From: Williamsoniiplasma luminosum
GTDB lineage: Bacteria; Bacillota_I; Bacilli_A; Mycoplasmatales; Mycoplasmataceae
Length of the DNA stretch: 64,000 bases
Direction: 5' to 3'
NCBI RefSeq assembly: GCF_002803985.1
Contig: NZ_CP024963.1
Span: forward strand, 1-64,000
This document shows positions 24,151 through 37,090 of the stretch, piece after piece. The notes beneath the pieces are model-generated. The model did not search any database, was not told the origin of the DNA, and saw only the letters and a program-made list of their open reading frames with translations. The translations under genes were made by a program, and so were the position numbers. Position 1 is the stretch's first letter. Every line of letters starts with the position of its first letter.

Positions 24151-24180
24151 TTTACTCCTTACCTACAAAATAATTCCTAT

Positions 24181-24275
24181 AAAAAATGCCTACTCAAGAA
24201 CTTGAGTAGGCAAAAACAAAATGTTTGATAAATATCTTACATTCCTTTTTCGCCTCTCTGGACTCAATTAAAGGA
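24181..24275 (-). promoter_or_regulatory. PyrR-binding leader and attenuator of the pyr operon
   Basis: The minus-strand leader contains AGTCCAGAGAGGC (24264-24252), matching the conserved PyrR-binding loop of Bacillus-type pyr leaders, followed by an intrinsic terminator. The terminator has a 12-nt arm TGCCTACTCAAG, TT, the complementary arm and six U residues (24212-24181), and lies 31 bp before pyrR. The expected mechanism is termination when PyrR-UMP binds. The antiterminator pairing was not worked out in full. Confidence 0.9.
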
Positions 24276-24290
24276 TTACTTCTAAATATC

Positions 24291-35611: not shown

Positions 35612-36112
35612 TTACTTAATTGGTGTGTATGTAAAATCAATTCTTAGAAAATCAACTAAATAAATATCAGCCAAACCGGTGTCTTTGTTTAGTGATCAAA
35701 AATTCTTTGAATCTCCATTCAAACCATTAATTCCCATTAACATTCCACCCATACCTGGATAGACTTTAAAAGTCATTTTTAACTCTTCTCTATTAGCATC
35801 TAAATATTCATAAGCTGTTTTCCCAAATCAAGAAACATCCAATGTTTTATCAAAATTTAAATATCCTTTTTCGTTTTCTTTGATTTGTGTTGGACCCCAT
35901 TCGGGATGTTTGGTATAACTTTTCATCACTAAATGCACATCACGAGTTCTTAATTGTGATTTTAAATTACTGTATTGAATAAAGGCAAATGCTGATAAAG
36001 CAAAAGCAATCACAAGCATCACTGCCATGACAATGATGGTGATTTTAAATTTCTTGTTGTTTTGTTGAGGTTGTTGAGGTTCTTGTGCTTGTTGAGGTTG
36101 TTGGTTTTCCAT
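35612..36112 (-). CDS. Membrane-anchored DUF4430-like protein
   Basis: 166 residues. A Gln/Pro-rich N-terminus (1-20), a membrane anchor (about 23-48) and an outer domain ending WSLNKDTGLADIYLVDFLRIDFTY. The C-terminal pattern (YLD…GMGGMLMGINGLNGD…WSL) resembles DUF4430, a transcobalamin-C-terminal-like fold. It follows an ECF S-component under a cobalamin riboswitch, so it may capture cobalamin or a related corrinoid at the surface; that is inference from context. Its first 68 bp overlap the upstream gene. Confidence 0.75.
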
Positions 36113-36671
36113 CTTCTAAACCCTTCGTTTCTATTTTTATATTGGTTTTATTCACAAAAATTTTAGGGATGTAACTTTTCATCACTTTCATCACAGGAAT
36201 GATTAAAGCAACACCAATCAACATGTTGGCAACACCATGAATTAAATCAAAACTAAAGCCAGCAATTCAATATGCCATTGCCCCACTTACACCATAAAAC
36301 ATCATTCAAACACCGGTGTTTAGTGTTCCGAAAGCAAAACCAAAAACAGTCATAATAATGACTCCGATTCATCAATGTTTTAAAATTGCTTTTTTGAAAA
36401 CTAAATTAATCAATAGGACAAAAATCGGTCAAATGATCATATAAAAAACAACTCAATCACCAAAACCATAAGTCACAAATTCAAGAACATTAAAACAAAT
36501 TGCAACTGTTAAAATGGCTCAAAGCGGCATGAATAAAGCCCCAATTAAAAAGAGAAATGTGACTAATTCAACATTCGGTAAAAACGATAACGCAACTTGC
36601 AAACTATAAATTAAAGCTGTGTAAATCGCGATGAAAACAATTCTAATTGTTGTGAATTTATAATTGATCAT
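36045..36671 (-). CDS. ECF transporter S component, probably cobalamin or corrinoid
   Basis: Predicted substrate-binding membrane subunit, 208 residues with about six hydrophobic segments (IRIVFIAIYTALIYSLQVAL at the start). It must borrow EcfA/A'/T from elsewhere; none is in the window. The cobalamin riboswitch upstream supports B12 specificity. The start MINYKF at 36671 has AAAGGAG ten bases upstream. The Ser/Thr-rich tail (GKPTTSTSTRTSTTSTKQQEI) is encoded in the same DNA as the N-terminus of the next gene, in another frame. Confidence 0.8.
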
Positions 36672-36765
36672 TTTTTTAATTCTCCTTTCGAGATAATAAA
36701 GTAACAATCAAATTAATTTGATTGTTAGATTTGAGAGCAAACATCTTACTCTAAATTTTTGGAAT

Positions 36766-36985
36766 AAAAACACGATTTAAATAAATCGTGGTCGTGTTTG
36801 GAAAAAGAAAATTTAACCAACTTTTTCTGACCAGGAAAAAGAATAATTGTAGAAAGATAATAGGTCTCCTGACTCAAGTTCATCTCAATTATCGCCTTCT
36901 CGGTTTCCCAATGGCCTGGATAATTGATCCCTTTTACAGTTGCTGGTACAGTTTTGGCATTTAACCAAATTCCCTTAACATTACT
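36766..36985 (-). ncRNA. Cobalamin riboswitch with intrinsic terminator
   Basis: On the minus strand the aptamer shows AAGGGAATTTGGTTAAATGCC-like entry bases (36976-36956), CTGTACCAGCAACTGTAA, GCCATTGGG, GAAGGCG…TGAGATGAA and the B12 box AGTCAGGAGACCT (36874-36862). A terminator follows: CACGATTT, 4-nt loop, AAATCGTG (36790-36771) and five U residues. This fits transcriptional repression by bound cobalamin. It stands 94 bp before the ECF S-component. Confidence 0.93.
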
Positions 36986-37090
36986 TTTCTGTTTTTATTG
37001 CCTTATTATTTTCTCACATTTTTTTCAAGTTAATTTTAAAAATGAAAAATTTGATAAAGATTTAAAAATATTGTATTTAATCAAATATGT

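Follow-up and report, generated by a model that had tools for sequence, protein, structure and literature searches.

Cobalamin riboswitches before a candidate B12 importer and a class Ie ribonucleotide reductase operon in Williamsoniiplasma luminosum and related Mollicutes

The window, a 64-kb stretch of Williamsoniiplasma luminosum DNA, carries on its minus strand a cobalamin riboswitch aptamer, an intrinsic terminator and two overlapping genes, one for a candidate B12 S-component of an ECF transporter and the other for a membrane-anchored transcobalamin-like protein. The aptamer (36842–37000) is matched by cmscan to the full RF00174 model (1–189) with 72.9 bits and an E-value of 4.6e-16, against a gathering score of 31.5 bits, and the terminator (36763–36790) consists of an 8-bp stem, CACGATTTATTTAAATCGTG (36790–36771), followed by the U tract TTTTTATT; both elements, as well as the lack of any cobalamin synthesis gene within the 64 kb, are thus found as a preliminary description of this DNA had claimed. 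A proposed antiterminator has as its 5′ strand AAUAAAAACA (36990–36999, minus strand), which is complementary to the 3′ arm and U tract of the terminator and pairs in MFE folds. Blocks of similar complementarity are also found in the nrdF leaders of four genomes (G000, G002, G008 and G019; G numbers denote the genomes compared), some of them with altered partner bases. A sequence-shuffle test lent the proposed antiterminator weak support in this very A+T rich region, and the block is likely, on modest support, to be the antiterminator of the importer leader. A ribosome-binding sequence, GAAAGGAG, can be read upstream of the ATG of the S-component gene at 36671.

The S-component gene (36045–36671, minus strand) encodes 208 aa and is legible only under code 4, with its seven TGA codons read as tryptophan. 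Among PDB sequences, the sole related entry is 6fnp_A (E 9.3e-8 with the single sequence), and a profile built from 13 members reaches the same entry with an E-value of 1.5e-15 and matches no other S-component. The structure 6FNP is that of ECF-CbrT with the B12 S-component of Lactobacillus delbrueckii, for which transport of cobalamin and cobinamide has been shown (PMC5997447). The Pfam family ECF_trnsprt (PF12822), a generic family label only, is matched with an E-value of 4.6e-4 and 20.7 bits, below its gathering score of 30.7. The predicted model (pLDDT 85) is six-helical. Its best Foldseek matches, 14 in number, are all S-components, with weak E-values of 0.1–4 and no single vitamin favoured; they include ThiT, RibU, BioY and FolT, and 6FNP is absent among them. 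Since these fold matches are weak and cover several specificities, the assignment to CbrT rests on sequence and context. Its identification as an ECF S-component in the preliminary description is upheld, and by sequence it groups with no other vitamin family, 6fnp_A being matched alone among the solved S-components. Although it is only a distant relative of CbrT, it is supported as a candidate cobalamin carrier of the CbrT type.

The second gene (35612–36112, minus strand) overlaps the S-component gene by 68 nt and likewise needs TGA as tryptophan; most of it lies outside the interval 36045–36985 to which the preliminary description had confined the unit. Its product of 166 aa has a predicted helix at 19–56 and a beta-grasp domain at about 60–166, which is probably extracellular because it is carried on a membrane helix. 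The protein had been called DUF4430-like, and this holds for a relative rather than for the protein itself: PF14478 (DUF4430) gives no match at E<=1 when the protein is searched against Pfam, but a 48% identical relative in G002 (L066:2768–3277) passes with 28.5 bits against 23.8. The protein's own Pfam and NCBIfam matches are weak and probably due to chance, and the classification came from relatives and a structure model. The transcobalamin-like fold that had also been proposed is borne out: the 17 best Foldseek matches of the AlphaFold model (pLDDT 86) in the PDB are all transcobalamin, intrinsic factor or the bacterial RUMGNA_00854 (E 8e-5 to 3e-3), including 5np4, the isolated beta domain of transcobalamin with cyanocobalamin. 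With a profile of 13 members of the family, the top match is the C-terminal domain of gastric intrinsic factor (E 0.0026), and RUMGNA_00854 and transcobalamin-2 rank lower. The likeness to the beta domain at the C terminus of transcobalamin and of intrinsic factor, and to DUF4430, is one of predicted fold and profile match, whereas the differences are that the protein is bacterial and has a single domain, carried behind an N-terminal membrane helix, with no alpha barrel.

Judging from the model, the anchored protein may capture corrinoid, and a handover from it to the S-component may follow. Alternatively, it may be a structural or regulatory partner that has borrowed the beta-grasp fold and binds no corrinoid, a possible if rather doubtful reading: the fold serves many ligands, the mammalian proteins hold B12 between two domains of which only the beta domain is present here, and the family is poorly conserved in sequence (27% on average), but the nearest folds are specifically those of cobalamin carriers, 5np4 among them, and in related genomes the gene often adjoins cbrT and stands under a B12 switch.

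As possible users of the cofactor, QueG and a class II ribonucleotide reductase (RNR) had been suggested. When the 1.03-Mb genome was searched family by family, QueG was not found, whereas the second RNR large subunit of the genome, encoded at about 531.6–534.1 kb, proved to be NrdJ, the adenosylcobalamin-dependent class II enzyme: it scores 1226 against 854 bits with NCBIfam NF005991 (“vitamin B12-dependent RNR”) and 552 against 400 with TIGR02504, and alignment to T. maritima NrdJ shows that the active-site Cys, Asn and Glu blocks are conserved. A match to the B12-binding domain PF02310 at 811 kb, the sole one in the genome, is IMP dehydrogenase. Import of ready adenosylcobalamin, first suggested by the absence of PF01923 (the PduO-type adenosyltransferase, found in none of 60 genomes), was dropped once a search with PF02572 found an adenosyltransferase of the CobA/BtuR type at 162681–163202, with 163 against 25.7 bits; with the NCBIfam equivalog TIGR00708 it stays below the cut-off (127 against 168 bits). 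EcfA and EcfT genes are found at about 374 kb, so that the six-helix S-component fold, weak as its E-values are, is accompanied by this module elsewhere in the genome; a permease of the FecCD/BtuC type was not found in the genome search.

The genome contains two copies of RF00174. The second (568742–568925, minus strand; 74.4 bits) lies 532 kb from the first and about 230 nt upstream of nrdF-nrdI-nrdE. Over aptamer, downstream hairpin and terminator stem, the two leaders share about 95% identity. The best match of NrdF is the metal-free R2 protein of M. florum, 6gp2; in their alignment, V125, P185 and K219 replace three metal-binding Glu residues, and Tyr132 is kept. NrdF is therefore assigned to class Ie, which suggests that nrdFIE encodes a metal-free, oxygen-requiring backup reductase.

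The distribution of these genes was compared among 60 related genomes, with nrdJ counted intact or broken. nrdJ, btuR and cbrT are almost only found together: nrdJ and btuR are both present in 22 genomes and both absent from 36, each occurring without the other once, while nrdJ and cbrT occur together in 20 and are both absent from 37, with three cases of nrdJ without cbrT and none of the reverse. Among the 37 genomes with nrdE, a B12 switch stands at nrdF in 9 of the 11 that have nrdJ (intact or broken) and in 0 of the 26 that do not. The p-values of 4e-14 to 4e-7 overstate the case, because they were computed as if the related genomes were independent; the co-occurrence spans several genera and two families. 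Furthermore, cbrT adjoins nrdJ in G001, G003, G009, G010, G017 and G035, and a B12 switch precedes cbrT also in relatives from other genera. Sub-threshold remnants of the switch are found at nrdF in G020 and G025, where nrdJ is gone, and in G036, with nrdJ in fragments, the switches are weak and both cbrT and btuR are degraded. Two genomes (G033 and G001) have both reductases and no B12 switch at nrdFIE. In four others (G003, G014, G021 and G026), NrdJ is the sole RNR large subunit found and the B12 switch is absent, as would be expected if there is nothing to switch; G014, G021 and G026 should, for want of another large subunit, depend strictly on B12. A further observation in these three is that nrdJ, cbrT and btuR stand in a row (G014:C1:104262–107289).

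These data also bear on the reading that the substrate of the S-component is a different vitamin or a corrinoid precursor, the riboswitch in front of the gene being a recent copy without consequence. S-components have one common fold, the fold matches are to S-components of several kinds, and the near-identity of the two leaders means that one of them may be recent. However, such a reading is quite improbable, as the sequence search of the PDB yields CbrT alone among the solved S-components, members of the family co-occur with nrdJ and btuR, in several genomes right beside nrdJ, the neighbouring gene product has the fold of a cobalamin-binding protein, and the B12 switch before cbrT recurs in other genera.

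Cobalamin would be the ligand of both leaders, to judge from their aptamers, and by analogy B12 would turn off the importer and nrdFIE alike: known B12 riboswitches of this class act as repressors on genes for uptake and for B12-independent isoenzymes, for example, nrdABS of Streptomyces. That the riboswitch at nrdFIE is an ON switch through which B12 activates the class Ie reductase is hardly credible, for although ligand-free folding is compatible with either sign, known switches of the class act as just described and an intrinsic terminator lies 3′ of the aptamer in both leaders of this genome and in the nrdF leaders of G002, G008 and G019.

The locus thus very probably serves as import arm in a small B12 regulon of a Mollicute that scavenges the vitamin. 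What the parts are, that there are two switches, which genes these precede and how the genes co-occur come directly from computation, and the following scheme is proposed to connect them. The anchored transcobalamin-like protein, the CbrT-type S-component and the shared EcfA and EcfT would bring in cobalamin, the CobA/BtuR-type enzyme would convert it to adenosylcobalamin, and NrdJ would use this cofactor to make deoxyribonucleotides. When plentiful, B12 would bind the two near-identical riboswitches, and the terminators thus formed would silence the importer operon as well as nrdFIE; when B12 is short, antitermination would turn on import and nrdFIE.

A different riboswitch is known at this position, namely the 2′-deoxyguanosine switch on the ribonucleotide reductase operon of M. 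florum (PMC12268651). It resembles the present case in that a riboswitch with its terminator immediately precedes nrdFIE in a member of this bacterial family, but it senses the end product and not the cofactor of a rival enzyme. Among the genomes compared, a 2dG-I riboswitch is found just upstream of nrdFIE in ten, all lacking nrdJ, and 2dG-I at nrdFIE is restricted to genomes without nrdJ; in Mesoplasma-type relatives of this kind it occupies the position of the B12 switch. A search of genome contigs for NrdF returned mostly Actinobacteria and few named Mollicutes; as for named species, Mesoplasma grammopterae has 2dG-I and NrdE only, a B12 switch at nrdF accompanies an intact NrdJ in the Spiroplasma endosymbiont of Danaus chrysippus, and a B12 switch together with a split nrdJ match is found in Spiroplasma sp. 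AdecLV25b. Two 2dG-I matches in the W. luminosum genome itself (813 and 925 kb) were considered as nrd control and set aside, neither lying at nrd genes. As a separate observation, a 2dG-I-class match of 52 bits (L073, G001:C1:95227–95291) lies directly 5′ of nrdJ, the anchored protein gene and cbrT in G001, a genome without a B12 riboswitch.

B12 switches also have other targets. In G028, the genes of the anaerobic class III RNR, nrdD-nrdG, are preceded by one (L175, G028:C1:166178–166348), and four further genomes (G009, G017, G023 and G032) have one before deoD and a gene for a deoxynucleoside kinase. These are all other sources of deoxynucleotides, and they have in common that a shortage of B12 would turn on its import and the alternatives to NrdJ. 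It is somewhat more probable than not that a branch-wide B12 regulon exists in the spiroplasma/mesoplasma Mollicutes, in which class Ie is held behind NrdJ, the B12 switch decays and the 2′-dG switch takes over the operon upon loss of nrdJ, and class III and salvage are also governed, B12 setting the source of DNA precursors in general. Nature would then offer an example of replacement between riboswitch classes on a single operon, with the 2′-dG switch in nrdJ-less Mesoplasma and the B12 switch in nrdJ-bearing relatives.

It is already known that B12 switches act on uptake genes and B12-independent isoenzymes and that ECF-CbrT stands beside nrdJ in Lactobacillus. Borovok et al. reportedly described in 2006 a B12 riboswitch of Streptomyces that acts on the class Ia operon nrdABS, so that there, as proposed here, B12 represses a B12-independent reductase in the presence of the B12-dependent NrdJ; the target here is instead the metal-free class Ie nrdFIE of a Mollicute, and the same switch stands also on B12 import. 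The L. delbrueckii nrdJ-cbrS-cbrT-pduO genes and ECF-CbrT (PMC5997447) share with the present system a CbrT-type S-component, an adenosylcobalamin-dependent NrdJ and an adenosyltransferase in a B12-auxotrophic Firmicute, and cbrT adjoins nrdJ in several Mollicute relatives too. Unlike in L. delbrueckii, the importer is here under a B12 riboswitch, the adenosyltransferase is of the CobA/BtuR and not the PduO type, the operon includes the anchored transcobalamin-like protein, and the control extends to a second reductase.

In the literature searched, mainly open-access, nothing relevant was found on cobalamin riboswitches or class II reductases in connection with Mollicutes, Mesoplasma or Spiroplasma, nor on the use of B12 by Mollicutes, control of a class Ie reductase by B12, alternation of B12 and 2′-dG switches or a transcobalamin-like partner of an ECF transporter. 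A survey of class Ie shows in a figure which other reductases its genomes encode, and its text makes no mention of riboswitches, B12 or NrdJ (PMC11846895). In a survey of Ni and Co/B12 use from 2009, 15 of 17 Mollicutes use neither metal and the other two are urease-bearing Ni users, so that probably no Mollicute was scored as a B12 user (PMC2667541, tables). The genes found here suggest that one Mollicute branch carries B12 import, activation, use and regulation, that the metal-free reductase serves these organisms as a B12- and metal-independent backup, and that the anchored partner provides a corrinoid capture step for ECF transporters.

Several minor observations may be added. In G023 and G032, B12 riboswitches of 70–90 bits (L029, L016 and L008) precede deoD-deoxynucleoside kinase and lipoprotein genes, and nrdJ, nrdE, btuR and cbrT were not detected in either genome; these switches may be relics or may serve another B12 user. 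B12 riboswitches are also found before predicted lipoproteins of unassigned family (L025, L026, L065, L076 and L171), some of whose genes lie beside cbrT or beside long S-components (370–393 aa) with extra domains, and further corrinoid binders are possible among these lipoproteins. Within the window, a PyrR-binding RNA (24179–24278, minus strand; 56.8 against 54 bits) is followed by a long run of minus-strand genes; these may form an operon for pyrimidine synthesis, an unusual find in a Mollicute if so.
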